A stretch of DNA of 24,940 bases, from the NCBI GenBank assembly GCA_002686135.1, contig NZAO01000027.1, forward strand, positions 8,784-33,723. The letters are read 5' to 3'. This document shows, piece by piece, positions 3,467 through 19,556 of this stretch (the first letter of the stretch is position 1; each line of letters begins with the position of its first letter). This DNA is from Rhodospirillaceae bacterium. Its GTDB lineage: Bacteria; Pseudomonadota; Alphaproteobacteria; UBA11136. A program made the position numbers and the translations under genes. Under the pieces are notes generated by a model that was given only the letters and a program-made list of their open reading frames with translations, had not been told where the DNA came from and searched no databases.

Positions 3467-4975
3467 TCAGCCCCCGAGGGCCAGCAGGCTGACGTCGGTG
3501 AAGCGTGCCACCACCTGGGGCACGACCCCGAACAGCAGCGTCACGCCGCCGCAGATGACCAGCGCCGAGGTCAGCGACGGGGTGAACGGCACCGGGCGGT
3601 GGTCGCCCTCGGGCGCATCCTCGGCCCACATCTTCAGGAGCACGGCGGCGTAGTAGTACAGCGCGATCACGGCGTTGACGGCGGCGATCACCGCCAGGGC
3701 GTAGCCCCACGGCTCGCCGGCGGTCGCCAGCACCCGGAAGACCTCGAACTTGGCGAACCAGCCGCCCAGTGGCGGGATGCCGGCCAGCGACCCGAAGAAG
3801 ATCGTCATGGCTACCGTCATCGCCGGGGCGTAGTGGAAGGCGCCCGAGAACGACCCGATCTCGGTGGAACCGCTGCGGCGGGCCAGCGTGATGATGACGG
3901 CGAAGGCGCCCAGGTTCATGGCGGCGTAGACGGCCAGATAGGTGACCACCGCCGACAGGGCCTGGTCGCCGATTGCGCCGCTGTGCCCGGCCACCGCAAG
4001 CGGGGCGATGATGAAGCCGGTCTGGGCGATGCCCGAGTAGGCCATGAGCCGCACCAGGTCGGTCTGGCGCAGGGCGATCAGGTTGCCGACCGTCATGGAC
4101 ACGGCGGCGAGGATCCAGACCAGCGGCTCGAACACCTCGGGCCGCGCATAGAAGCCGACGTAGACGAGCTGCAGCAGGGCGACGAAGCCCGCGGCCTTCG
4201 AGGCGACCGCCAGGAACGCCGTGACCGGGGTGGGGGCACCCACGTAGACGTCGGGCGCCCAGGTGTGGAACGGCGCCGCCGAGACCTTGAAGGCGAACCC
4301 GGCCACGACGAACACGATGCCCATGGTGATGACCGCCACCGACGGTCCGGCGCCGACCAGGGCGTCGGCGATGTGCGACAGTTGCGTCGAGCCGGCCACG
4401 CCGAACAGCAGCGACATGCCGTAGAGCATCACTGCCGAGGCGAACACGCCCATCAGGTAGTACTTGAGCCCCGCCTCGTTGGAACGCAGGTCGCGCTTGC
4501 GCCACGCCACCATCAGGTAGGCCGGGATCGACAGCAGCTCGAGCGCCACGAAGATCGAGATGAGGTCGCGCGACGACGCCATCATCACCATGCCCATGAG
4601 CGATGCCAGCAGCAGGCCGTAGTACTCGTTCTCCCAGTAGTCGCCCTCGGCCACGTAGTTCGTGGACAGCAGGATCACGACGTAGCCGGCCAGCAGGAAG
4701 ATGGCCTTGGTGACGAGCGCGAAGTCGTCGACCACGTAGGCGCCGCCGAACATGGTGCGGTCGGCGCCGTCGAGGGCGAGCGTCAGGATCGGAATGAGCG
4801 TTGCCAGCACCCCGAGTCCGGCCAGCGCCGCCGTGTAGGGCCGGGCCCTTTCGAGGAAGACGATGTCGACCAAAGTGATCAGGACACCGACGCACAGCAG
4901 CGTGATCTCGGGCGCGAAGGCGTGCCAGTCGATCGGCGGGCGCTCGAACGCCAGGGTCAGCAGCTCGACGGACAC
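3467..4975 (-). CDS. nuoN: NADH-quinone oxidoreductase subunit N (set 2, 11-subunit complex)
   Basis: 502-residue antiporter-like membrane subunit, polytopic (about 14 helices expected), the one nearest the quinone module in the proton-pumping arm. Hallmarks: Glu146 in LELLSIPAYLM (TM5), Lys230 in FKVSAAPFHTWAPDVY (TM7), Lys260 on TM8 after GAPTPVTAFLA, and the TM12 lysine in GGWFAKFEVF. All expected charged pump residues are present, so it should be functional. The start is GTG at 4975, leaving 3 bases between it and the nuoM stop. The stop is followed after one base by the midA reading frame. It is the last nuo gene of the second operon. It differs clearly from the set 1 NuoN in sequence, for example by an extended hydrophilic stretch with WENEYYG near residue 115. 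Confidence 0.96.
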   Translation of the reverse strand: MSVELLTLAFERPPIDWHAFAPEITLLCVGVLITLVDIVFLERARPYTAALAGLGVLATLIPILTLALDGADRTMFGGAYVVDDFALVTKAIFLLAGYVVILLSTNYVAEGDYWENEYYGLLLASLMGMVMMASSRDLISIFVALELLSIPAYLMVAWRKRDLRSNEAGLKYYLMGVFASAVMLYGMSLLFGVAGSTQLSHIADALVGAGPSVAVITMGIVFVVAGFAFKVSAAPFHTWAPDVYVGAPTPVTAFLAVASKAAGFVALLQLVYVGFYARPEVFEPLVWILAAVSMTVGNLIALRQTDLVRLMAYSGIAQTGFIIAPLAVAGHSGAIGDQALSAVVTYLAVYAAMNLGAFAVIITLARRSGSTEIGSFSGAFHYAPAMTVAMTIFFGSLAGIPPLGGWFAKFEVFRVLATAGEPWGYALAVIAAVNAVIALYYYAAVLLKMWAEDAPEGDHRPVPFTPSLTSALVICGGVTLLFGVVPQVVARFTDVSLLALGG

Positions 4976-4978
4976 GGG

Positions 4979-6625
4979 TCAGCCCCCAACCGCCGCATGC
5001 TCGTCAACGCCATGTTCGTCGGCGACCGAGATCTCGTAGACGTCGGCACAACCCAGCGCCCTTGCCTGTTCGGCTGTCAGTTCCGAGGCTTCAACCTTGA
5101 GGCACTGGTGCAGCGAGGCATCGACGGCGCCATCGGAGAGCCGGAACACGAGGTTCGGGTAGACGCCGATGGCGACGATCAGGACGAGCATCGGCGCCCA
5201 TGCGATCCACTCTTCACGCGACGTGTCGGTGATGTGCGGATCGTTCGCGAACTCGTCCGGCGGCGTGCCGAAGGCGGCCCGTTGGAGCAGCCAGAGCAGG
5301 TAGCCGGCGGCCAGGACCGTGCCGACCGCTGCGATGACCATGAAGGTGCGGAAGGTCTCGACCGGCACGCCGTTGGCCGGGCTGTAGGCCGACAGGATCG
5401 CCGGGAACTCCCCCCAGAAGCCGGCCAGCCCCGGCAGGCCCAGCGACGCCATCGCACAGAGGCCGAAGATCCAGCCCATGCGGGGTGCCTGTACGAGCAG
5501 GCCGCCCAGGCTGCTGATCTCGAGAGTGTGGTAGCGCTCCTTCATCGAGCCGGCGAGGAAGAAGAGCATCCCGGTGATGAGGCCGTGGGCGACCATGCCC
5601 ATGACGGCGGCGTTGATGCCGAAGTCGGTGAGGGTGGCGATGCCGAGCATCACGAAGCCCATGTGGGCCACCGACGAGAAGGCGATGAGGCGCTTCATGT
5701 CGGTCTGGGCGAGGCAGCCGAGGGCACCGTAGATGATGCCGATGACCGCCAGCAGGCCGATCCAGGGGGCCCACTCGACAGCGGCCTCAGGGAGGATCGG
5801 GATGGCGATGCGGATGAAGCCGTAGGTGCCGAGCTTCAGGAGCACGGCCGCCAGGATCACCGAGCCGACCGTCGGGGCCTCGGTGTGGGCGTCGGGCAGC
5901 CAGGTGTGAAACGGAAACATCGGCACCTTGATGCCGAAGCCGAGGAACATGCCGCCGAAGATCCAGAGTTGGGCCGTGCGCGACACCCCGTGGGATGCCA
6001 CGGCGTCGGCCAGGTCGGTGAACACGAACGACTCGGCGCCCGTCAGGAAGAACAGGGCCAGGAAGCTCACCAGCATCAGCGCCGATCCGAACAGCGTGAA
6101 CAGGAAGAACTTGAGCGAGGCGTAGCGTCTGTTCGGGCCACCCCAGACGGCGATCATGAAGAACATCGGGAGCAGCACGACTTCGAAGAACACGAAGAAC
6201 AGGACCAGGTCCTGGGCGGCGAACGTGCCGACCATCCCGGTCTCGAGGATCAGGATCAGGATCAGGAACGCCTTGGGGTTGTGGGGCTCGGGGAAGTGGT
6301 TCCAGCTGTAGACGATGCACAACGGCACGATCAGCACGGTCAGCAGGATGAGCGGCAACGACATGCCGTCGATCCCCATCGAGTAGTGGCTCGAGATGAC
6401 GTCGATCCAGACCCTGTCGACGGCGAACTGCAGCCGGTCGGTGTGGCCGATGTCGAACTCGATGAGGAGCAGCACGGCGACCAGCGCCACCCACAACGAG
6501 GTGACGAGGGCGACCAGCTTGTGCCGGTCCTCCTGGTAGCGGGGGATGAGCAGCATGAGCGCCACACCCACCAGCGGTGAGAACGTTACGACCGTGAGGC
6601 CCCAACCGTCGAGCAGATTTTCCAT
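4979..6625 (-). CDS. nuoM: NADH-quinone oxidoreductase subunit M (set 2)
   Basis: 548-residue antiporter-like subunit of the membrane arm. Pump residues visible: Glu148 in FFEVVLLPMFF (TM5), Lys233 in GIKVPMFPFHTWLPDAHTEA (TM7), Lys264 in LLKLGTYGF (TM8) and Glu406 in GLAGFWGEF. A glutamate rather than lysine at that last position is typical of NuoM and separates it from NuoL and NuoN. The C-terminal 50 or so residues are hydrophilic and acidic (TAEQARALGCADVYE, then a His/Glu/Asp-containing tail), longer than in most NuoM. Start ATG at 6625, with a strong ribosome binding site, AGGAG, that overlaps the nuoL stop. It is the fourth of the H-N core genes in the family order L-M-N. Confidence 0.96.
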   Translation of the reverse strand: MENLLDGWGLTVVTFSPLVGVALMLLIPRYQEDRHKLVALVTSLWVALVAVLLLIEFDIGHTDRLQFAVDRVWIDVISSHYSMGIDGMSLPLILLTVLIVPLCIVYSWNHFPEPHNPKAFLILILILETGMVGTFAAQDLVLFFVFFEVVLLPMFFMIAVWGGPNRRYASLKFFLFTLFGSALMLVSFLALFFLTGAESFVFTDLADAVASHGVSRTAQLWIFGGMFLGFGIKVPMFPFHTWLPDAHTEAPTVGSVILAAVLLKLGTYGFIRIAIPILPEAAVEWAPWIGLLAVIGIIYGALGCLAQTDMKRLIAFSSVAHMGFVMLGIATLTDFGINAAVMGMVAHGLITGMLFFLAGSMKERYHTLEISSLGGLLVQAPRMGWIFGLCAMASLGLPGLAGFWGEFPAILSAYSPANGVPVETFRTFMVIAAVGTVLAAGYLLWLLQRAAFGTPPDEFANDPHITDTSREEWIAWAPMLVLIVAIGVYPNLVFRLSDGAVDASLHQCLKVEASELTAEQARALGCADVYEISVADEHGVDEHAAVGG

Positions 6626-6634
6626 GTCGGCCGT

Positions 6635-6639
6635 CTCCT
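6635..6639 (-). promoter_or_regulatory. Strong ribosome binding site of nuoM (set 2), overlapping the nuoL stop
   Basis: AGGAG on the minus strand, 9 bases before the ATG at 6625. The TAG stop of nuoL shares its first bases (TAGGAG). This is the clearest Shine-Dalgarno sequence in the block and supports coupled translation of nuoL and nuoM. Confidence 0.65.
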
Positions 6640-8896
6640 AGACGATGACGATGAGTATCCCGGCGAGGACCGTGGCAGCGGCGAAAAGGATCGCCGCATA
6701 GTCCTGGACCTTGCCGGTCTGGATTTTTCGGAGTTCTCCGCCCGCACCCGATGAGGCGCGACCCGAGGTATTGATGATGCCGTCGACGACCAACTGGTCG
6801 AAGCGGTGGTACACGAGGTTGCCCGCCTTGACGGCGTTCTCCCCGGCAGCATTGACGACGCCGTCGATGACGTCCTGGTCGACCTTGTAGGCGGCAGCGG
6901 CGACAGGCCCCTTGGTGCCGCCGGCGATGATGTCGGTGTAGAGGTGGTCCAGGTAGTACTTCTGGACGAGGAAGGTGTGGCCCATCTTCGCCAGCGGGTA
7001 TCTGCTGGTCAGGCCGTCCGGGAGTTCGGTGAGGCTCTCACCGGCGGCCTTCGAGGCTGCCTCGACCTTGACGAAGTAGTACCAGCCGGCCACGGCGATC
7101 CCGGACAGGACCACCAGCGTCGACGCGATCGCCAGCGACCAGCTGGGCGTGCCGTGCGAGATCGACGGGAAGTAGGCGGCGACCGGTTCGACGAAGTGGC
7201 CGAACCGCTCCTGGAGCGACCCGGGTACCAGCGGGAAGCCCTTCGGGAGGTTCAGGAGGCCGGCCACGATGGCGAGTCCGGCGAGGATCCAGAGCGGAAC
7301 GACGATGCGTGGGCCCGACTCGTGGGGGGTGCCGTGGCCGCGGAACTCGCCGAAGAAGGTGAGGTAGATGCAGCGGGTCATATAGGCGGCGGTCAACGCG
7401 GCGGTGGTGACTCCCATGACCAGCATGAACGTGTAGGCGCCGTTGCCGCCGGTGCCGCCGAACAGGCCCCAGCCGCCGGTGCCTACGAGGATCTCGTCCT
7501 TGGACCAGAAGCCGGCCAACGGCGGCAGCCCGGCGAGGGCGATCGATCCGATGACGAACGTCCGGTAGGTGTGCGGCATGTGCTTTCGGAGGCCGCCCAT
7601 GTCTGACTTCATGTCGAACGAGTGCACGGCGTGTGCGGCCGCCCCCGACCCGAGGAACAGGCAGGCCTTGAAGAAGGCGTGCGTGAACAGGTGGAACAGG
7701 GCCGCCGTCCAGGCACCGACGCCGAGGGCCATGACCATGTATCCCAGCTGTGAGATGGTCGAGTAGGCGAGCACCTTCTTGATGTCGCGCTGTACGAACG
7801 CAAGGCAGGCGCCGACCAGGGTCGTGAGCCCGCCGATGAGGGCCATGAGGTTGATCGAGCTGCCGCCGATCGAGAAGCCCTCGAAGAACACGCCGTACAT
7901 GCGGGCGATCATGAACACGCCGGCGACGACCATGGTGGCGGCATGGATGAGCGCCGAGACCGGTGTGGGTCCGGCCATGGCGTCCGGCAGCCAGGTGTGC
8001 AGGAGGAACTGGCCTGACTTCGACATGACGGCGGCCATCAGGCAGCAGGACGCCACCAGCAGCGCCGTGTGCGAGAGCCGGCCGGCGCCCGCCAGGGCAT
8101 TCGTCTCGGCGATCGAGAACGAACCGAACTGACCGGGTAGTGCCGAGCCGACGGTGAAGAACAGGATCGTGACACCGACGATGAGGCCCATGTCGCCGAC
8201 CCGGTTGGTGAGGAACGCCTTGAGCGCTGCGTCGCTGTTGGGTTTCTCCTCCCACCAGTGGCCGATCAGCACGAAGGAGCAGACGCCGACCAACTCCCAC
8301 GAAACCAGGAGCTGCAGCGTGTTCTCGGAGACGACGAGCAGCAGCATCGAGGCGGTGAAGAGCGACAGGAAGGCGAAGAAGTGCGTGTAGCGCTGGTCGC
8401 CGGCGACGTATTCGGTGGAATACACGTGCACCAGCAACGAGACGAGGGTGACGACCACCAGCATCATCACGGCGGGCCCGTCGACGAGGGTGCCGGCGGT
8501 GAACGTGACGTCGTTGAGCTCGAACCAGGTGACGGTGTTGTGAACGGCCAGGGAGGGATGGCCGGCGGCGTGGCCCTCGGTGGCGTGGCCCTCGGCGGCG
8601 TGGCCCTCGGCGGCGGCGACGGCCCGATGAACCTCCTCGCCCTCGAAGTTGTCGCGGTGGTCGATCCACGCGGCGGCGGTCAGCAGCGACAGCACGAAGG
8701 CGATGCCGACGAGGGCGATGCCGAGTTCGGAGCCGCCCCTCGGCATCCGCTTGCCGAAGAACAGGATCCCGAGGAACGACAGCGCCGGCAGCGCCGGGAT
8801 CAGCCAGGCGTTGCGCAGCAGCCAACTCCCGCCCTCGGTGATCCCGAGGGACAGGCCGGATGCCGTCGTGGCGGCCAGGGTGAGCAGATCGGTCAC
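6638..8896 (-). CDS. nuoL: NADH-quinone oxidoreductase subunit L (set 2)
   Basis: 752-residue distal antiporter-like subunit with the long C-terminal lateral helix and last membrane helix typical of NuoL. Pump residues: Glu201 in SWELVGVCSF (TM5), Lys293 in MSKSGQFLLHTWLPDAMAGP (TM7), His318 on TM8, Lys410 in HAFFKACLFLGSG and Lys466 in FWSKDEIL (TM12). The TM13-TM14 loop is short here (GEFRGHGTPHESG), in contrast to set 1. A histidine-rich EGHA repeat at residues 97-113 lies in the hydrophilic loop between the second and third membrane helices. The GTG start at 8896 is one base after the nuoK stop. The first ~20 residues form an extra hydrophilic-to-hydrophobic leader before the usual NuoL N-terminus (AWLIPALPAL). 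Confidence 0.96.
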   Translation of the reverse strand: MTDLLTLAATTASGLSLGITEGGSWLLRNAWLIPALPALSFLGILFFGKRMPRGGSELGIALVGIAFVLSLLTAAAWIDHRDNFEGEEVHRAVAAAEGHAAEGHATEGHAAGHPSLAVHNTVTWFELNDVTFTAGTLVDGPAVMMLVVVTLVSLLVHVYSTEYVAGDQRYTHFFAFLSLFTASMLLLVVSENTLQLLVSWELVGVCSFVLIGHWWEEKPNSDAALKAFLTNRVGDMGLIVGVTILFFTVGSALPGQFGSFSIAETNALAGAGRLSHTALLVASCCLMAAVMSKSGQFLLHTWLPDAMAGPTPVSALIHAATMVVAGVFMIARMYGVFFEGFSIGGSSINLMALIGGLTTLVGACLAFVQRDIKKVLAYSTISQLGYMVMALGVGAWTAALFHLFTHAFFKACLFLGSGAAAHAVHSFDMKSDMGGLRKHMPHTYRTFVIGSIALAGLPPLAGFWSKDEILVGTGGWGLFGGTGGNGAYTFMLVMGVTTAALTAAYMTRCIYLTFFGEFRGHGTPHESGPRIVVPLWILAGLAIVAGLLNLPKGFPLVPGSLQERFGHFVEPVAAYFPSISHGTPSWSLAIASTLVVLSGIAVAGWYYFVKVEAASKAAGESLTELPDGLTSRYPLAKMGHTFLVQKYYLDHLYTDIIAGGTKGPVAAAAYKVDQDVIDGVVNAAGENAVKAGNLVYHRFDQLVVDGIINTSGRASSGAGGELRKIQTGKVQDYAAILFAAATVLAGILIVIV
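8568..8612 (-). repeat. Three tandem 15-bp repeats inside nuoL (set 2), encoding His-containing pentapeptides
   Basis: Plus-strand unit GCGTGGCCCTCGG(C/T)G occurs three times head to tail with one base difference. In the nuoL frame this gives the series AEGHA-AEGHA-TEGHA, with a further related AGH, at residues 96-113. The unit is a multiple of three, so copy-number change would not break the frame. Confidence 0.9.
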
Positions 8897-8897
8897 G

Positions 8898-9197
8898 TCA
8901 GCCCCTCAACTGGTCGATGCCGGCGAGGTCGATGCTGCGGCGGTTCCGGTACAGCAGCAGCACCATGGCCAGCCCCACACCGACCTCGGCGGCGGCCACG
9001 GCGATGATGAACAGGGCGAAGATCTCGCCGCCGACGGTCGCGCGGACCGCCGAGAAGGCAACCAGGTTGATGTTGACGGCGTTGAGGATCAGTTCGATCG
9101 ACATGAGGACGAGCACGCCGTTGCGTCGGGCCAGCACGCCGTAGACGCCGATGGCGAACAGGGCGGCGGCGAGGAGGAGGAACTGGTTGAGCAGCAT
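8898..9197 (-). CDS. nuoK: NADH-quinone oxidoreductase subunit K (set 2)
   Basis: 99 residues, the normal length. Three membrane helices. It carries the two conserved membrane glutamates of NuoK, Glu35 in [15 protein letters not shown] and Glu71 in [12 protein letters not shown], which sit in the half-channel line of the membrane arm. The ATG at 9197 is one base after the nuoJ stop, and [14 protein letters not shown] is a standard NuoK N-terminus. The longer open frame upstream is only the overlap with nuoJ in another frame and is not used. The gene stops one base before the nuoL GTG. Confidence 0.96.
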
Positions 9198-9198
9198 C

Positions 9199-9744
9199 TC
9201 AGTCCTTCCTCGCCACGACGATCGCCCCGATGAGGGCGGCCAGCAGCAGGACGGACACGGCCTCGAACGGGACGATGTACTGGCTGAAGATCGTGTCACC
9301 GATCTCGGCGGTGAGGCTCGGGGCGGCACGGTTCACGGCGGCGTCGCCGAACGAGTCGAGCACTGCACCGCCGGTGACGACCAGTACCAGAACGCCGACC
9401 AGCACGGCCATGCGGCGCTTTTCGGTGTCGGCCTCCTCGTCCTCACCCAGGGCGCCCCGGGTGAGCATGATGCCGAACAGGAACAGCACGACGATCGCCC
9501 CGATGTAGACGAGGACCTGCGTGACGCCGACAAACTCGGCGCCCAGCAGGATGAAGATCCCGGACACGCCGGCCAGCACGATCACGAGGTAGAGCGCAGC
9601 GTGGACCACGTTGCTGGTGGTGACCATGCGCAGGGCCGCCACGATCATCACCAGGGCCAGGATCCCGAACGCGATGTTCTGGGCGACGACGGTGTCGCCG
9701 CTCATCAGCGAATCGAAGCCCTGGAGGGCGGCCAGCACGGTCAC
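9199..9744 (-). CDS. nuoJ: NADH-quinone oxidoreductase subunit J (set 2)
   Basis: 181 residues, five membrane helices expected. The core stretch VVHAALYLV and the TM3 segment [20 protein letters not shown] are the NuoJ signature. Tyr80 is the conserved tyrosine beside the pi-bulge helix that changes shape during turnover in structurally studied complex I. The GTG at 9744 overlaps the nuoI stop (GTGA) and has AAGG 7 bases before it, so I prefer it to an ATG at 9705 that lacks a ribosome binding site. The extra 13 residues are not conserved, so the shorter protein (168 residues) cannot be excluded. Confidence 0.93.
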
Positions 9745-10247
9745 CGGGGCACCTTGGCCTTCTTGGCCTCGCTGCCGGCCTCGTACTCCGTGAAGTCGGG
9801 AACCGTCTCCATCCACTTGCCCAGGAGGGTCTTGTCGTGGAGCAGGTCGGCGATCCTGGGCTCGGAGTACTCGAACTCCGGTGTCCAGAACAGGGCCTCG
9901 AACGGGCACACCTCGACGCAGATGCCGCAGTACATGCACAGCGCATAGTCGATGTCGAAGCGGTCGAGGGCGTTCTTCTTGCGGGGCTTGCCGCCGGGAC
10001 GCCGCGGTGGTGCCAGGTACTTGTGGCCCTCGATGTAGATGCACCAGTCGGGGCACTCCCTGGCGCACAGCATGCACGACGTGCAGTTCTCCTCGTGCAG
10101 GGCGATGACGCCACGCGCCCGGGTCACGGGCGCCTCCTTGACCTTCGGGTACTGGACGGTGTGGGAGCCCCTGGTGAGCGTGCGCACCATGGTCTTCATC
10201 GTGACGCCGAGGCCCTTGATGAGGCCGGGAAGCCCGGGAGCGGGCAT
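9741..10247 (-). CDS. nuoI: NADH-quinone oxidoreductase subunit I, 2x[4Fe-4S] (set 2)
   Basis: 168 residues. Carries the two [4Fe-4S] clusters N6a and N6b that pass electrons to the terminal cluster in NuoB. The ligand sets are Cys55-58-61-65 ([12 protein letters not shown]) and Cys104-107-110-114 ([12 protein letters not shown]). Between them is a basic loop rich in Arg, Lys and Pro (residues 76-92), and after them a tail of about 50 residues that ends in a lysine-rich stretch. In an 11-subunit enzyme NuoI is the most exposed cluster carrier and a plausible docking point for the unknown electron donor (inference). The ATG at 10247 overlaps the nuoH stop by one base (TGATG). Confidence 0.96.
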
Positions 10248-11284
10248 CAGAACACCACCTTCAGCACGCCGGTTGCGATGATGTTGGCGAGCGACAGCGG
10301 GATGAGCACCTTCCAGGCCAGCGTCTGGAGTTGGTCCTCGCGAAAGCGCGGGTAGGTGAACCGGAACCAGAAGATCAGGAAGGCGACCAGGACGATCTTG
10401 CCCAGCAGGACCATCGGGCCGATGACGTTGAACAGGTTGTCAGTCGGGTCCAGGCCCGGCACGTACCAGCCCCCGAGGAACAGGGTTGCGGCCAGGGCCG
10501 AGAAGATGCCGGCGGTGGCGAACTCGCCGATGAAGAACATCAGGAAGCGCATACCGGAGTATTCGGTGAGGTAGCCGGTGACGAGTTCGGACTCGGCGAT
10601 AGGCATGTCGAACGGAGGCTGCGTGAGCTCGGCCTGGACGGCGATCAGGAAGATCGCGAACCCCAGGAACTGCGTGATGATGAAGGGGCTGCCGATGCCG
10701 CCGAAACCGAAGATCTCCCCCTCGGCCTGCGCCATCACGATGCCCTGCATGTTGAGGGTGCCGGCCTGGATGACGACGCCCATGACCGCCAGGACCAGCG
10801 GCAACTCGTAGGCGATGAGCTGTCCCGTGGCCCGCAGGGCACCCAGCAGGGAGTACTTGGAGGCCGATGCCCAACCGGCCATGAGGATCCCGATCACGGA
10901 GATCGACGAGACCGCCAGGGCCAGGAAGATGCCCGTGTCGACGTCGATGAACATCAGGTCCGGTCCGCCGGGTATGACCAGAACAAGCAGGAACGTCGAG
11001 ACCAGCACCACGAACGGCGCCGCCTTGAACACGATCCGGTCGGCGTTTTCCGGGACGATGTCCTCCTTCTGGAGGAACTTGCCGACCTCGGCGAGGAGCT
11101 GCAGCGATCCGTAGGGGCCGGCCTCCATGGGGCCGAGCCGGCTCTGCATGAAGCTCATCATCTTGAACAGGAACAGGTAGACGAGCGTGCCGGCAGGGAG
11201 CAGCACGGCCACGAGGCCGACGACCGCCCGGATGGTGGTCTGCTGCCAGTGGGCCAACTCGACGGCGAGGGTGAGGGTGTTCAT
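10247..11284 (-). CDS. nuoH: NADH-quinone oxidoreductase subunit H (set 2, divergent)
   Basis: 345 residues, eight membrane helices expected. It forms the quinone tunnel and links the quinone module to the pumps. Family features are [20 protein letters not shown] (46-65), [27 protein letters not shown] and [17 protein letters not shown]. Several otherwise conserved NuoH residues differ: the Glu-Arg before the MQxRxGP stretch is replaced (FLFKMM at 38-43), the usual LADG is LAEVG, and the NRxPFD motif reads TQPPFD (Thr221, Gln222). The set 1 copy has the normal residues. The ATG at 11284 overlaps the nuoD stop (ATGA). The longer open frame upstream is a shadow of nuoD. Confidence 0.95.
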
Positions 11285-12444
11285 CGGTCGATGTCCCCGA
11301 GGATGAAGTAGGGGCTGGCGAGGATCGAGATGACGTCGGGGACGTAGACGCCCTCGAGCAGCCACGGCGTGATCGAGACGTTGTTGAACGACGCCGAGCG
11401 GATCTTGACGCGGTACGGGACCAGCTCACCCTTGGAGACGATGTAGTAGCCCATGACGCCGAGCGGGTTCTCGGTCTCCACGTAGGCCTCTCCGGCTGGC
11501 ACCTTGATGATGCGGGGCACCTTGGCCATGACCGGCCCGGAGGGGATGCCGTCGAGGCACTGCTCGACGATGGTGCAGGCCTCGCGGACCTCCTGGAGGC
11601 GCACCCAGTAGCGGGCGAACGAGTCGCCGTCGGGATGGGTCCAGACCTTCCAGTCGAGTTCCCGGTGGGCGAGGCCCATGTCGCTGTCGCGACGTAGGTC
11701 CCAGTCGACGCCGCTGGCCCGGATGTTGGCGCCGGACAGCCCGTAGGCGAGGCCGATGTCGGCCGGGACCACACCGATGTTGCGGGTCCGGGCCTCGAAG
11801 ATCTCGTTGCCGGCGACCAGGTCCTCCATTTCGTCGCAGAAGGTCCGGATGCGGGCGAGAACGCCCCGGGTCTCCTCGATCCAGCCCTTGGGAAGGTCGT
11901 CCTTGAGGCCGCCGATGCGGTCGAAGTTGGGGTGGAAGCGGCCGCCGGTGACCGCCTCGATCTGGTTGAGCACGAACTCGCGGTCGCGAAAAGCGAAGAA
12001 GACGGGGGTGACGGCCCCCAGTTGCACGGCCATGTCTCCGAGGAACAGAATCACGTTGGCGATGCGGGACAGTTCGAACAGGGCGGTGCGGATCCACCTT
12101 GCCCGGGGCGGGGCCTCGACCTCCATGAGCCGCTCGGCGGCGAGGATGAACGGGACCTCGTTGGCGAAGCTGCCCAGCCAGTCGATGCGGTTCACCAGCG
12201 TGGTGACCTGCGGGTAGGTGCGGACCTCGGCCAGCTTCTCGTAGCCGCGGTGCATGTAGCCCATGACAGGTTCGGCGGCGACGACCCGTTCGCCGTCGAG
12301 CCGCACGATGATGCGCAGGGTGCCGTGGGTGGCCGGGTGCTGCGGTCCGATGTTGAGGGTCATGCCCTCGGTTTCGAGTTCGACGTTCACGCGTGCGTCG
12401 GCGGCCTGGGCGGCGATGTAGGCGATCTGCTGGGTGTCGGTCAT
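11281..12444 (-). CDS. nuoD: NADH-quinone oxidoreductase subunit D (set 2)
   Basis: 387-residue 49-kDa homologue, related to the large subunit of [NiFe] hydrogenases but without the nickel cysteines. With NuoB it forms the quinone head-group site. His36 and His40 in GPQHPATHG match the family. His40 corresponds to Thermus Nqo4 His38. The R-x-D-Y motif containing the second quinone ligand reads NRIDW (Arg86, Trp89), so the usual tyrosine is a tryptophan. Arg86 aligns with the arginine that NDUFAF7 methylates in the human protein, by my alignment from memory. The C-terminus [10 protein letters not shown] is a normal NuoD ending. ATG at 12444 overlaps the nuoC stop (ATGA). Confidence 0.96.
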   Translation of the reverse strand: MTDTQQIAYIAAQAADARVNVELETEGMTLNIGPQHPATHGTLRIIVRLDGERVVAAEPVMGYMHRGYEKLAEVRTYPQVTTLVNRIDWLGSFANEVPFILAAERLMEVEAPPRARWIRTALFELSRIANVILFLGDMAVQLGAVTPVFFAFRDREFVLNQIEAVTGGRFHPNFDRIGGLKDDLPKGWIEETRGVLARIRTFCDEMEDLVAGNEIFEARTRNIGVVPADIGLAYGLSGANIRASGVDWDLRRDSDMGLAHRELDWKVWTHPDGDSFARYWVRLQEVREACTIVEQCLDGIPSGPVMAKVPRIIKVPAGEAYVETENPLGVMGYYIVSKGELVPYRVKIRSASFNNVSITPWLLEGVYVPDVISILASPYFILGDIDR

Positions 12445-13100
12445 GCGTCGTCGCCTTCTTCCGACGCCTCGTCGTCGCCCGGCATGAGTTCCACGTCGAC
12501 GATCCCCGGCCACGGCTTGATGCGCCGGGCCAGCAGTGGGTAGTCCTTGCGCAGTGGGTTCCCCTCGAAGGCGCCAGGCAGGTAGAGGTGGACCAGGTTG
12601 GGGTGGCCCCTGAAGCTGATGCCGAACATCTCCCAGGCCTCCCGCTCGTGCCAGTCGGCACCCGCGTAGGCGGGTATCCACGAGTCGACCTCGGGCCGGT
12701 CGTCGGGAAGGTCGGCCTTGACCGTGATGCCGAGGCCCGACACGGGGTCGTGGACACGGGCGAGCACCTGGAAGCGGGTCTCTCCGCCGGTGGTGCCCCA
12801 CTCCATGGGTCCAGGTTCGCTCACCTCGGGGCCATCCACCTGGGCGTCCATGTCGCGCCCGTAGGGCGAGGGCTTCCAGTCGATGGCAGACAGGAAGTTG
12901 AAGTACGACATGCCGCAGCGGTCGCGGAGGGCGACGCCTGCGGCCAGCCAGGAGTCGGCGGCCACCCGCACCCACACATCGACTCCGGGATGCACCTCGC
13001 CGGTTACGAACCCATCGCCCAGGGCTTCGACGAGGGTCGACACGAGGGCGTCGCGTGCAACGTCGACGGTGGGCGCCTCGACGTCGTCGACCGTGTCCAC
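12441..13100 (-). CDS. nuoC: NADH-quinone oxidoreductase subunit C (set 2)
   Basis: About 219 residues, cytoplasmic 30-kDa subunit that braces NuoD. Signature near the C-terminus: HEREAWEMFGISFRGHP (151-167) followed by GNPLRKDYPLLARR (180-193). It is a separate NuoC, not fused to NuoD. The C-terminal tail is acidic. The start is uncertain. GTG at 13100 lies 7 bases after the nuoB stop with GAGGA 4 bases before it. A TTG at 13121 has GGAG 6 bases upstream and would overlap nuoB by 14 bases, adding 7 residues. The region before the core (residues 1-15) is not conserved and does not decide it. Confidence 0.93.
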   Translation of the reverse strand: MDTVDDVEAPTVDVARDALVSTLVEALGDGFVTGEVHPGVDVWVRVAADSWLAAGVALRDRCGMSYFNFLSAIDWKPSPYGRDMDAQVDGPEVSEPGPMEWGTTGGETRFQVLARVHDPVSGLGITVKADLPDDRPEVDSWIPAYAGADWHEREAWEMFGISFRGHPNLVHLYLPGAFEGNPLRKDYPLLARRIKPWPGIVDVELMPGDDEASEEGDDA

Positions 13101-13107
13101 GGATTCC

Positions 13108-13608
13108 TCAGGAGACGACAATGGGGTCTCCGTTCCAGCGTTCGCCCATGTCCTCAGATCGGATTCGCTCCTGGAGAAGCACGATGCCCTCGAGTAGCGC
13201 CTCGGGGCGTGGCGGGCAGCCGGGCACGTACACGTCGACGGGAATGATCTGGTCGACGCCCTTGGTGACCGAGTAGGAGTCCCAGTAGGGGCCGCCGCAG
13301 TTGGCACAGGAGCCCATCGAGATCACGTACTTGGGGTCGGGCATCTGTTCGTAGAGACGCTTGACCGCCGGTGCCATCTTGTCGGTGACGGTGCCCGAGA
13401 CGACGACGAGGTCGGCCTGGCGGGGCGAGGCCGGGAACGGGATCACGCCGAGGCGCATGACGTCGTAGCGGGGCGAGGCGAAGGCGGCACCCATCTCGAT
13501 GGCACAGCAGGCGAGGCCCCACTGGTACACCCAGAGGGAGTACTTGCGGCTGACGTTGAGCAGCGCTGTGAGTGGCTTCGGCAGTTTGCCGTTCTCTACG
13601 AGTCCCAT
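13108..13608 (-). CDS. nuoB: NADH-quinone oxidoreductase subunit B, cluster N2 carrier (set 2)
   Basis: 166 residues, normal length. It binds the terminal [4Fe-4S] cluster N2 that reduces quinone. Ligands: Cys34 and Cys35 in GLACCAIEM, Cys101 in [10 protein letters not shown] and Cys131 in VPGCPPRPE. An additional Cys104 occurs three residues after the third ligand, where E. coli NuoB has Ser. The stretch [20 protein letters not shown] resembles cyanobacterial NdhK and other NuoB from 11-subunit enzymes more than E. coli NuoB (from memory). ATG at 13608, 22 bases after the nuoA stop. Confidence 0.97.
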
Positions 13609-13630
13609 GTCCAGTTCGTTGTCCTGCTCC

Positions 13631-13996
13631 TCAGATCCAACGCAGCAGTCGCTTGCGCCAGGCGTAGAAGAGGCCCAGAGCGAGGATGAAGATGAAGATG
13701 GCCATCTCGACGAGGCCGAACACGCTGTAGGACTCGAGTCGGGCGGCCCACGGGAAGATGAACACTGCCTCCACGTCGAAGAGCACGAACATGAGGGCGA
13801 ACACGTAGTAGCGGATGTTCGACTGGCTCCAGCGGTCGCCCTGCGGGTCGACGCCGCTCTCGTAGTTCATGACCTTCTGGACGGTGGCTCGCTTCGGGCG
13901 GAGCAGGCTGCTGAGCCCGATGAAGATGCCGACCAGCACGACGGCGAGGCCGCCGAAGACAACGACCATCAACCAGTTTCGGAGGAACTCGGACAC
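13631..13996 (-). CDS. nuoA: NADH-quinone oxidoreductase subunit A (set 2), first gene of the 11-subunit operon
   Basis: 121 residues, three membrane helices. The conserved NuoA loop is present: [13 protein letters not shown] (44-56), followed by [20 protein letters not shown] with Asp74 and Glu76. Start GTG at 13996. No good ribosome binding site precedes it. A TAGGTT hexamer 8 bases upstream could be a -10 box, which would make the message leaderless or nearly so. It follows a 144-base gap, the longest in the nuo region, so it is the natural start of a second transcription unit. Confidence 0.95.
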
Positions 13997-15631: not shown

Positions 15632-17220
15632 CAGCGACCCTCTTCCGAATCCGCGCCACCTTCAGGGACGATGTCGACGCCCATGCGGCTGGTCGGCTCG
15701 TGGAAGCCGTCGACGTGTCGTTCAACGTGTTCGACGAGGGCGTCGACCGCCGGCTCCATGCGCTCGATGACCGGCTTCGGGTAGATGCCGAGCACCACGA
15801 TCAACGCCAGCAGCGGTGTCAGGACCAGGCCCTCGCGCAGGCGCAGGTCGGGCATCTCCGCGTTGTCGCCCTCGGCGGGGCCGTGGAACACCCGCTGGTA
15901 GGCCCACAGCAGGTAGAGGGCGGCCAGCACCACGCCGCCGCCGGCCGCCACGGCATACCAACGGTGGGCGTTGAAGGTCCCGACCAGCACGAGGAACTCG
16001 CCGACGAAGCCGTTCAGGCCGGGAAGGCCGATCGACGACAGCATCACCACGGTGAAGACCGCTGCCAGGATCGGGGCCGACTTCTGGAGTCCACCCAGTT
16101 CGGCGATCTGGTGCGTGTGGCGTCGTTCGTAGATCATCCCGACCAGAAGGAACAGGGCGCCGGTGGAGATGCCGTGGTTGACCATCTGGAGCAGGCCGCC
16201 CTCGATGCCCTCTGTGTTGAGGGCGAACGTGCCCAGGATGATGAACCCGAGGTGCGCCACCGATGAGTAGGCGACCAGGCGCTTGAGGTCCTTCTGCATG
16301 GTGGCGACGACCGCCCCGTAGACGATGCCGACCACTCCGAGCACGAGGAAGACCGGGGCGAAGTGGTGGGTGGCCTCCGGGAACAGGTACAGGCCGAAGC
16401 GCAGGAACCCGTAGGTGCCCAACTTGAGGAGCACGCCCGCGAGGATCACGGAACCTGCGGTGGGTGCCTCGGTGTGGGCGTCGGGAAGCCAGGTGTGCAG
16501 CGGGAAGATCGGCACCTTGACGGCGAAGGCCAGTGCGAAGGCCAGGAACAGCCAGCGGGCGGTCTCGGTGGCGATGCTCTGCGCCTCGGCGATGGCGATC
16601 AGGTCGAATGTGAGCGGCCCGCCGGTGGCGTCGGCATGCAGGAACGCCAGCGACACGATGCCGACGAGCATCAGCGCCGAGCCGGCCATCGTGTAGAGGA
16701 AGAACTTGGTGGCCGCATAGGTGCGGTTGCCGTGGCCCCACCGGCCGATGAGGAAGTACATCGGGACGAGCACGATCTCGAAGCACAGGAAGAAGATGAC
16801 CAGGTCGAGGCTGGTGAACACGCCCATCACGCCGCCTTCGAGGACCAGCATCCAGGCGTAGTAGGCGCGGCTGTCGTGCCCCGGGTCGGTGGCCAGGATG
16901 GCGATCGGGAACAGGATCCCCGTCAGGGCGACGAGGAACAGCGAGATCCCGTCTATGCCGAACAGCCAGGAGATGCCGAGCTCCTCGATCCATGCGTGGC
17001 GGCTGCCGAACTGGAAGCCGTCGACTCCGGGGTCGAAGGCGGAGAGCAGCCACAGCGTGAGCGCTCCGGTCGCCATCGTGGCGAGCACGGCCACCAGCTT
17101 CAACAGTTCCGGGCGGCGGCGGGGTCCGAGGATCACCAACAGGGCGCCGAGCAGGGGCGTGAGGACCAGTGCGGGCAGCACCGGGAAGGAGGGCGAGGCG
17201 GAGGCGAGCACGGGGATCAC
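15631..17220 (-). CDS. nuoM: NADH-quinone oxidoreductase subunit M (set 1)
   Basis: 529-residue antiporter-like subunit. Pump residues: Glu148 in LCFEIVLVPMYF (TM5), Lys235 in AVKVPIFPLHTWLPDAHTEA (TM7), Lys266 in LLKLGTYGF (TM8) and Glu408 in GLNGFVGEF, the NuoM-type glutamate of TM12. The GTG at 17220 overlaps the nuoL stop (GTGA), with GAGGG 7 bases before it; a TTG at 17223 is an alternative. The C-terminus has an acidic, hydrophilic tail of about 40 residues after the last helix. The much longer open frame upstream is the shadow of nuoL. Confidence 0.95.
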   Translation of the reverse strand: MIPVLASASPSFPVLPALVLTPLLGALLVILGPRRRPELLKLVAVLATMATGALTLWLLSAFDPGVDGFQFGSRHAWIEELGISWLFGIDGISLFLVALTGILFPIAILATDPGHDSRAYYAWMLVLEGGVMGVFTSLDLVIFFLCFEIVLVPMYFLIGRWGHGNRTYAATKFFLYTMAGSALMLVGIVSLAFLHADATGGPLTFDLIAIAEAQSIATETARWLFLAFALAFAVKVPIFPLHTWLPDAHTEAPTAGSVILAGVLLKLGTYGFLRFGLYLFPEATHHFAPVFLVLGVVGIVYGAVVATMQKDLKRLVAYSSVAHLGFIILGTFALNTEGIEGGLLQMVNHGISTGALFLLVGMIYERRHTHQIAELGGLQKSAPILAAVFTVVMLSSIGLPGLNGFVGEFLVLVGTFNAHRWYAVAAGGGVVLAALYLLWAYQRVFHGPAEGDNAEMPDLRLREGLVLTPLLALIVVLGIYPKPVIERMEPAVDALVEHVERHVDGFHEPTSRMGVDIVPEGGADSEEGR

Positions 17221-19556
17221 CAACTGGCCCTCGTGAGGAACCACAGCAGCAGTGCGACCGCTCCCAGTGCGGCGCCGGCGGCGTAGGTGCGGACCAGCCC
17301 GTTGTGGAAGCGACGCAGCACGCCGGCCAGGCGGCGAACCGACGTACCGACCCCGTTGACGGCGCCGTCCACGATGCGCTCGTCGAAGGTGGTGGTGGCC
17401 TCGAAGCCGGCCCGTCCCGGGCCGCCCATGAAGTCGCCCACGGCCCGGTCGATGGCCCAGGCATCGGCCAGCAGTGGCTGTTCGAAGACCCGGTGGTCGA
17501 TGCGACGACGCTGGTAGGCGGCGATGGCGACGGCGATTCCGACTAGGCCGCCGGCGATGGCGATGGCCGCCAGCACCCAGAGCATCCCGGCGCCGAGACC
17601 GAGGTGGACCTCGTTGCCGAACAGCGAGGGCTCGAGCCACTGCTCGAGGAACCTGAGCGATGGTGCGAACGGGAGCTGCATGATCCCACCACCGACCGAC
17701 AGGACCGCCAGGACCACGAGCGGCAGGGTCATCGTCCACGGCGACTCGTGCGGGTGGTGGTCGGCACGGGCGGCCACCGCATCGGGCAGGTGGTCTGCGA
17801 CGTCGTCGGTGTCGGGCGCGGCGTCGAGGGCGAGCGCGGGAACCTCCTCACGGCCCTCAGCGGCGGCGATGACGATGGCGTGGTCGGCGGCGGCAACGGT
17901 GTGCGCCGCCTGGGCGACGGCCAGCGATTCCTCGGCCACCTCGACCGCCATGACGGCAGCGGTCACGGCGTCCTCTGCGGCGAGCACCGCCTGGGCGAGC
18001 ACCTCAGGATCGGAGGCGTCGTCCGCCGTGTCTCCGGAGGTCGCCGATCGGGCCGCTTCGATGGCCGAAGCGTGTGCGGACTCCGCCTCTGCACGAACGG
18101 CAACCGCCGACTCGCGGCCCGTGCGCGCCACTTCGACGGTTGCCACGGAGTCGTCAAGGTTGGCCGTCGCAGCGGCCAGGCGGCCGTCCCATGCGGCGAC
18201 CACCTCGTCGGGTCGGGCGTCCGCGTAGCGGTGTCGGCCGAAGAAGGTGAGCACCACCTGGCGGGTCATGTAGAAGGCGGTCAGCACGGCGGTCACCAGG
18301 CCGACCGCCCACAGGGCGGGGCTCTCGTTCCAGGCGTACGCGAGGATCTCGTCCTTCGACCAGAAGCCGGCGAACGGCGGCACGCCGGCAATGGCCAGCC
18401 AGCCGATGATGAAGGTGGAGGCGGTGACCGGCATCCACTTCCGGAGACCCCCGTAGTGGCGTAGGTCCTGGTCGCCGTCCATGCCGTGGATGACCGAGCC
18501 CGATCCGAGGAACAGCAGCGCCTTGAAGAAGGCGTGGGTGACCATGTGGAAGATGGCCGGCACGTAGGCGCCACAGCCCACGGCGAGGAACATGTAACCG
18601 AGTTGGCTGATGGTCGAGTACGCCAGCACCTTCTTTATGTCGGTCTGTGCCATGGCGATGGTCGCTGCGAACAGCGCCGTGCCCACCCCCACCCAGGCGA
18701 TGAGCGAGGGGACCCAGTCGGCTGCGTCGGCGATGATCGGGTTGACGCGGGTCAGGAGGTAGATCCCCGAGGTGACCATCGTGGCGGCGTGGATCAGTGC
18801 CGAAACGGGCGTGGGGCCGGCCATGGCATCGGGAAGCCACAGGTACAGCGGGAACTGCGCCGACTTGCCGATCGCCCCGACGAAGAGCATCACGGCGATG
18901 AAGGTGGCCGTCGACTCGGCGACCTGCCCGGCATCCGTTGCATCGAGCACCTCGACGTACGAGAGCGAGCCGAACGTGAAGAACGTCAGGCACATGGCGA
19001 CGAGGACGCCCCAGTCGCCGATGCGGTTCGTGATGAAGGCCTTCTTGCCGGCGGAGGCGTTGGCGGGGTCGGTGAACCAGAAGGAGATGAGCAGGTATGA
19101 ACACGCCCCGACGCCCTCCCAGCCGAGGAACGTCAACAGCATGTTGTCGCCCAGGACGAGGACGAGCATGGAGAAGGCGAACAGGTTGAGGTAGGCGAAG
19201 AAGCGGCTGAAGTCGGTGTCGCCGTGCATGTAGCCGATCGAGTACAGGTGGATGAGGGCGCCGACGCCGGTGATGAAGAGGCACATCGTCAGCGACAGGG
19301 GGTCGGCGAGGAAGCCGATGTCGACGGACAGGTCGCCGGCCGGCACCCAGGAGAACAGCGTGGTGACCGAGCGGCGGTGGTGCTCATCGTGCGACAGCTG
19401 GTCGACGACCACGCCGACCGTGGCGGCGAACGACCCGATCATGGCGAGGGTCGCCACCCAGCCGGAGCGAGGCTCGCCGAGGCGTCGACCGGCCACCAGC
19501 AGCAGGGCGAAACCGGCCAGCGGGAACGCCGGGATGAGCCAGACGAGGTCGAGCAT
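17217..19556 (-). CDS. nuoL: NADH-quinone oxidoreductase subunit L with a large coiled-coil-like insertion (set 1)
   Basis: 779-residue distal pump subunit, well above the roughly 610-650 residues of most NuoL. The N-terminal core is normal: Glu147 in GWEGVGACSYLL (TM5), Lys231 in GKSAQFPLYLWLPDAMAGP (TM7), His256 on TM8, Lys345 in HAFFKALLFLGSG and Lys401 in FWSKDEIL (TM12). Membrane helix 13 ends at LTFFG (440). The family then normally has a short loop before HESPW...LPLVVLA (603-615), but here about 155 residues are inserted. The C-terminal part has the lateral helix region (IVDGAVNGVG) and a last membrane helix. ATG at 19556, three bases after the nuoK stop. The frame is continuous through the insertion, and codon third positions remain G/C-rich there. 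Confidence 0.95.
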   Translation of the reverse strand: MLDLVWLIPAFPLAGFALLLVAGRRLGEPRSGWVATLAMIGSFAATVGVVVDQLSHDEHHRRSVTTLFSWVPAGDLSVDIGFLADPLSLTMCLFITGVGALIHLYSIGYMHGDTDFSRFFAYLNLFAFSMLVLVLGDNMLLTFLGWEGVGACSYLLISFWFTDPANASAGKKAFITNRIGDWGVLVAMCLTFFTFGSLSYVEVLDATDAGQVAESTATFIAVMLFVGAIGKSAQFPLYLWLPDAMAGPTPVSALIHAATMVTSGIYLLTRVNPIIADAADWVPSLIAWVGVGTALFAATIAMAQTDIKKVLAYSTISQLGYMFLAVGCGAYVPAIFHMVTHAFFKALLFLGSGSVIHGMDGDQDLRHYGGLRKWMPVTASTFIIGWLAIAGVPPFAGFWSKDEILAYAWNESPALWAVGLVTAVLTAFYMTRQVVLTFFGRHRYADARPDEVVAAWDGRLAAATANLDDSVATVEVARTGRESAVAVRAEAESAHASAIEAARSATSGDTADDASDPEVLAQAVLAAEDAVTAAVMAVEVAEESLAVAQAAHTVAAADHAIVIAAAEGREEVPALALDAAPDTDDVADHLPDAVAARADHHPHESPWTMTLPLVVLAVLSVGGGIMQLPFAPSLRFLEQWLEPSLFGNEVHLGLGAGMLWVLAAIAIAGGLVGIAVAIAAYQRRRIDHRVFEQPLLADAWAIDRAVGDFMGGPGRAGFEATTTFDERIVDGAVNGVGTSVRRLAGVLRRFHNGLVRTYAAGAALGAVALLLWFLTRASW
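17228..17232 (-). promoter_or_regulatory. Ribosome binding site supporting the GTG start of nuoM (set 1)
   Basis: GAGGG on the minus strand inside the end of nuoL, 7 bases before the GTG at 17220. It favours this GTG over the TTG three bases upstream. Confidence 0.5.
17754..18227 (-). other. Alanine-rich, probably helical-hairpin insertion in NuoL (set 1), residues about 444-601
   Basis: Between membrane helices 13 and 14 of NuoL. Residues about 449-507 form an unbroken Ala/Glu/Val-rich stretch with charged residues at intervals and no proline. Residues 508-517 (SGDTADDASD) look like a turn. Residues about 518-569 form a second Ala-rich stretch. An acidic linker with prolines follows (570-601). 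By the usual NuoL topology this loop faces the cytoplasm. The set 2 NuoL has only about 14 residues at the same place. No known domain is recognised. Confidence 0.85.

Follow-up and report, generated by a model that had tools for sequence, protein, structure and literature searches.

A predicted helical hairpin inserted into NuoL of complex I in one lineage of Acidimicrobiia

Introduction

Bacterial complex I is often treated as a minimal core of 14 subunits, with NuoL as the distal pump subunit. In solved structures, the loop between transmembrane helices 13 and 14 (TM13 and TM14) of NuoL lies on the cytoplasmic side. The distal tip of a membrane arm like that of complex I can hold a cytoplasmic protein: in cyanobacterial NDH-1MS, CupA sits on NdhF3/NdhD3, where we know of no hairpin like the insert described here. 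Antiparallel coiled-coil arms, such as that of seryl-tRNA synthetase, combine a fixed base with a variable shaft and a distal contact region.

The NuoL/ND5 chains of complex I from E. coli, T. thermophilus and mycobacteria (3rko_L, 4he8_L, 8e9g_L) are like the NuoL studied here outside its insert, including the HPHE(S/A)P motif before TM14 and the Proton_antipo_M and Proton_antipo_N domains. The closest solved chain, the mycobacterial 8e9g_L (629 aa), passes directly from residue 450 to residue 451 where our protein has the insert. PMC3274701 places the lateral helix before the last membrane helix, with the TM13-TM14 loop on the same side. In DAB2, where DabA2 sits on the NuoL-like DabB2, the published description (PMC13144422) has a helical finger of the soluble partner engaging the TM12-TM15 region from the cytoplasm, so this region of a NuoL-like protein can serve as a docking site. 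That finger is part of DabA2 and reaches into the membrane, whereas the arm discussed here is NuoL's own, and the resemblance is one of principle only.

The insert is a new feature of a known subunit. When the window insert was searched alone, as had been proposed when it was first noticed, it matched no Pfam family at E 1 and no NCBIfam family at E 0.01, and the corresponding loop of the related locus L042 matched no PDB chain at E 0.01. No description of such a NuoL insert was found in the open-licence literature, and the word "NADH" does not occur in the main text of PMC5962788, on signature indels of Acidimicrobiia.

Results

The window, meaning the whole stretch of 24,940 nucleotides that was analysed, encodes two NuoL proteins on its minus strand. 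NuoL of set 1, the host of the insert (17217..19556, 779 aa; hereafter the window protein), scores 659 bits against TIGR01974 (NDH_I_L, cut-off 407.5) and 678.9 bits against NF005141 (cut-off 556). It carries the Pfam domains Proton_antipo_N and Proton_antipo_M, the latter ending at residue 426, ahead of the insert. Proton_antipo_C (PF01010) reaches 26.5 bits, just under its gathering score of 26.8, a shortfall that is not decisive because the cut-offs of the NuoL models themselves are exceeded.

Sequence comparison places the insert between TM13 and TM14 at residues 441-600 (17757..18236, minus strand, like its parts below). The first-pass annotation had reported about 155 residues at 17754-18227, equivalent to residues 444-601; the insert stands, and its natural limits make it 160 residues long. 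The frame is read unbroken across it, as claimed, and the third codon positions are G/C-rich (0.825), although less so than in the core (0.943). GC at first codon positions of the insert is 0.856, and alanine makes up 33% of its residues. The insert opens with a base motif, RHRYADARP (residues 441-449, 18210..18236), which is conserved in hairpin-bearing relatives and recognisable in the hairpin-less P0076 and L043. Two alanine-rich stretches had been described, of about 58 and 52 residues; we find predicted helical arm 1 (residues 450-507, 18036..18209; 58 aa, 31% Ala) and predicted helical arm 2 (residues 518-571, 17844..18005; 54 aa, 37% Ala), both with no proline. The short acidic turn between them and the acidic, proline-containing linker behind them are likewise present, the turn as GDTADDASDP (residues 508-517, 18006..18035) and the linker as 29 residues with 3 prolines and a net charge of -6 (residues 572-600, 17757..17843), followed by HPHESPW and TM14. 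The insert ends just before HPHESPWTMTLPL, the start of TM14. NuoL of set 2 (6638..8896) has only about 12 residues at the same place, the short loop that had been noted for this paralogue. A separate gene on the opposite strand was considered and rejected: long open frames do run antisense to the insert (of 305, 236 and 98 codons in the window; 199, 144 and 149 in the related locus L038), but their lengths are not conserved and we attribute them to high-GC codon use.

The insert is real and is inherited within a single branch of Acidimicrobiia, a class of actinobacteria. Each of 34 further proteins about 99% identical to the window protein (P0002-P0035) is 779 residues long, and seven genome records (L038-L042, L044 and L045) have inserts at the same place with base motifs in common with the window protein. 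Where the record of a hairpin locus has a title, it names Acidimicrobiia, Acidimicrobiales, Acidimicrobiaceae or an unplaced Actinomycetota MAG. Because a comparable loop recurs in independent proteins and genome loci, an assembly error or single-contig artefact is excluded. The first-pass annotation had proposed alignment with related NuoL, and had counted absence from resequenced DNA or random variation in close relatives as signs against a structural role. The insert recurs in the 34 near-identical proteins and in independent genome records, and is found beyond the source organism, within one Acidimicrobiia lineage. Changes of length and losses were indeed seen, but the variation is not random: base motifs are kept and the turn stays near the middle.

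Among the matches listed from three homology searches, the loop measures 105 residues or more (flanking motifs included) in 239 of 243 NuoL-type proteins, in protein lists that favour hairpin carriers since the searches started from hairpin-bearing queries. The exceptions are P0076, P0077 and P0219, with short loops, and P0241, a 515-aa entry in which the loop is not measurable. Among the best 80 of at least 581 genome loci, the seven named above have the hairpin, 72 have short loops and one, L083, has another insertion. In this last NuoL, from an Anaerolineae MAG, the TM13-TM14 loop contains some 230-260 residues that are rich in proline, include repeats of EKPRRPRPGQ-like units and are unrelated to the hairpin. 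When other kinds of protein with the insert were sought, the size-limited candidates listed gave 46 hits, all with NuoL-type Pfam domains. P0073, P0074 and P0080 keep 158 residues at the insert site, which are K/E-rich rather than Ala-rich. P0076 is 92% identical to the window protein over 58% of the query and has no arm.

In a core-only tree of 96 rows (a quick LG+G4 tree in which the outgroup does not form one side of a branch and from which 19 loci were left out), all 40 hairpin rows fall inside one clade of 55 rows (SH-aLRT 97). Presence of the hairpin requires 6 changes on this tree, compared with a mean of 31 in shuffles. P0076, L043 and P0219 branch from among hairpin carriers, lack the hairpin and keep both base/flanking motifs, which looks like clean loss. 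We read the distribution as one gain followed by several losses, and favour a single gain because the base motifs are common to all subclades; a few separate gains could also account for it. Since the hairpin was lost in P0076/P0077, L043 and P0219, it is not essential.

The insert is under purifying selection yet evolves faster than the core. Between the window protein and L038, dN/dS is 0.104 for residues 1-440, 0.367 for the insert and 0.147 for the C-terminal part; within the insert it is 0.40 in arm 1, 0.59 in arm 2 and 0.31 in the linker. Across the 35 near-identical proteins, 13 of the 26 variable sites lie in the insert (13/160, against 8/440 in the core and 5/179 in the C-terminal part). 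Conservation is unevenly spread along the hairpin. In 17 relatives of the window protein, column entropies are 0.93 bits in the base, 1.11 in the linker, 1.40 in the first half of arm 2 and 2.04 in the shaft; the values for 71 relatives of L042 are 1.58, 1.39, 1.17 and 2.48 bits. The distal part of arm 2 differs from the shaft in conservation with p 0.0007 (17 relatives) and 5e-8 (71 relatives), values to be read with segment limits drawn after the first conservation profile and columns that are not independent. The first ~26 residues of arm 2 are the most conserved stretch of the arms among relatives. Residues of the turn are not conserved (1.92-1.94 bits), and the turn and distal arm 1 fall below the base, linker and distal arm 2 in conservation. 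The hairpin carries a net charge of -21 in the window protein and averages -21 over the 17 relatives; for relatives of L042 the average is -10.

The insert probably folds as a helical hairpin of the antiparallel coiled-coil type, a prediction supported mostly by relatives of L042 (P0121-P0240). In this subclade, column-mean hydrophobicity repeats every 3.55 and 3.50 residues along the two arms, values that none of 2000 shuffles reaches in the helical band. In a single-arm heptad test of 11 relatives of the window protein, itself included, 9 of 22 arms gave p <0.05; in the window protein alone the heptad signal is not significant in either arm (p 0.23 for arm 1, 0.87 for arm 2). The coiled-coil potential for which a check had been proposed is thus not demonstrable from the window sequence alone, and the earlier reading of a long helical hairpin draws its support mostly from relatives, through periodicity, co-variation and a mid-loop turn.

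Co-variation between the arms, analysed in 116 sequences of relatives of L042 (effective number 66), is highest on the antidiagonal of sum 158-160, as predicted from the turn at loop positions 74-84. This antidiagonal holds 10 of the top 30 pairs by mutual information (MI), against 2.7 expected, and 8 with mean-field DCA, and of 43 centres the one at 158-160 scores highest by either measure, whether 20, 30 or 60 pairs are counted. When inter-arm pairs alone are ranked, 11 of 30 are on the predicted antidiagonal, against 5.2; this count is reached by 8 of 500 arm-swapping permutations, which ignore the relatedness of the sequences. By the first statistic used (mean rank per antidiagonal, 65 sequences), the predicted antidiagonal was not on top. 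We regard this as moderate evidence, applying to the relatives of L042, that the arms co-vary along an antidiagonal set by the turn. The turn lies near mid-loop in 38 of 41 sequences with loops of 112-187 residues (motifs included), as called by a script that slightly favours the middle; the turns of P0062, P0054 and L039 were judged mis-called. In P0121-P0240, distal arm 2 carries a nearly invariant VPKAE with its central proline, preceded by a KLVKALDKA-like stretch. As that proline is nearly invariant, distal arm 2 is probably kinked in this subclade, which speaks against a straight hairpin, and VPKAE is the best candidate for a contact site, or else marks a kink.

Discussion

Our best explanation of the insert, held tentatively, is a docking or tethering arm; even granting the hairpin fold, we would call a docking role plausible, not probable. 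The hairpin would have been acquired in one Acidimicrobiia lineage and afterwards shortened or lost several times. It would project from the TM13-TM14 loop of NuoL into the cytoplasm, a side that follows from the known topology of NuoL, and would be about 80 Å long if fully helical. It would lie outside the proton path, with its base anchored on NuoL and a shaft of changeable length, and the conserved distal half of arm 2 would contact a partner protein where the distal membrane arm faces the cytoplasm. We infer the cytoplasmic projection, the partner and the docking role from the pattern of conservation: a conserved base and distal arm 2 separated by a changeable shaft fit partner binding. 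A hairpin lying on the membrane surface is unlikely because of the net charge of -21. The layout is like that of other antiparallel coiled-coil arms, with no detectable sequence relation. That the hairpin is a dedicated docking arm, by which the membrane-arm tip tethers complex I to another respiratory complex or to one particular partner in the cytoplasm, is rather unlikely; if true, it would be a supercomplex or regulatory contact of a kind not known in bacterial complex I. No partner gene common to the hairpin loci was seen by eye among the ORFs after nuoN in 15 loci.

The main rival is quite possible, if somewhat doubtful: an Ala/Glu-rich helical hairpin that folds by itself, has no partner and, being harmless, persists and drifts as a tolerated ornament. 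The fast evolution of the insert, its excess of variable sites and its repeated changes of length and losses are what such an ornament would show, and the unrelated Pro-rich residues in the same loop of L083 indicate that the site accepts insertions. It explains less well why deep divergence has left base, linker and distal arm 2 conserved, why dN/dS still lies below 1 and why 40 of the 55 rows in the clade keep the hairpin. An internal brace, in which the hairpin runs along the membrane arm over NuoM and NuoN and adds a strut next to the lateral helix, is improbable. A length of ~80 Å would span the neighbouring antiporter-like subunits, and changes to the E. coli lateral helix alter stability and pumping according to PMC3274701, so struts there can matter. 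The net charge (-21 in the window protein and as the mean of the 17 relatives, -10 in relatives of L042) however suits an anionic membrane surface poorly, loops of 102 to 177 residues would end at very different places, and the losses came without visible compensation.

Two further readings dispute the hairpin itself, and even together they leave little chance of its being wrong on their account. The high alanine content, the high GC at first codon positions and the non-significant heptad test of the window protein could reflect a disordered, low-complexity expansion of Ala-rich codon repeats. We consider this very improbable, as proline makes up ~0.4% of the arms against ~10% of the linker in 17 relatives of the window protein, K/E-rich orthologues have equal length, the 35 near-identical proteins are identical in length, and relatives show periodicity, co-variation and the mid-loop turn. 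That the arms are two additional transmembrane helices is scarcely credible: the 19-residue hydropathy maximum of the window arms, 1.57, is near the usual threshold of 1.6, and 8 of the 239 hairpins among the matches listed exceed it, but the other 231 do not, the maximum is as low as 0.26 and 0.23 in P0073 and P0080, both K/E-rich, and charges occur all along the 54-58-residue arms.

Whatever its role, the hairpin is a part of varying length on the distal pump subunit of an enzyme often seen as a minimal core, and would be a handle for asking what binds the membrane-arm tip from the cytoplasm. Close relatives that differ in the arm, the window protein and P0076 among them, make a natural experiment.

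The window (1-24940) has a GC content of 0.682, compared with 0.59-0.60 in pieces taken from six further contigs of its assembly, and its tetranucleotide correlation is 0.76-0.84 with those contigs and 0.993 with L038 (Acidimicrobiaceae). Another NuoL in the assembly, on contig C76, resembles NuoL of the assigned relatives. The window contig looks mis-binned, so the distribution of the hairpin in its assigned taxon is uninformative.

A tandem second nuo set was considered as a correlate of the hairpin and rejected. Set 2 nuoA follows nuoN in the hairpin loci L038, L040 and L041 but also in the hairpin-less L043, and was not seen within ~2 kb after nuoN in the hairpin loci L039, L042, L044 and L045, so there is no strict link between hairpin and tandem. 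Judged from its ORFs, set 2 of the window (3467-13996) comes immediately after the nuoN of set 1 and comprises nuoABCDHIJKLMN, with nuoE, F and G missing, and the start of the same tandem is found in L038, L040, L041 and L043.
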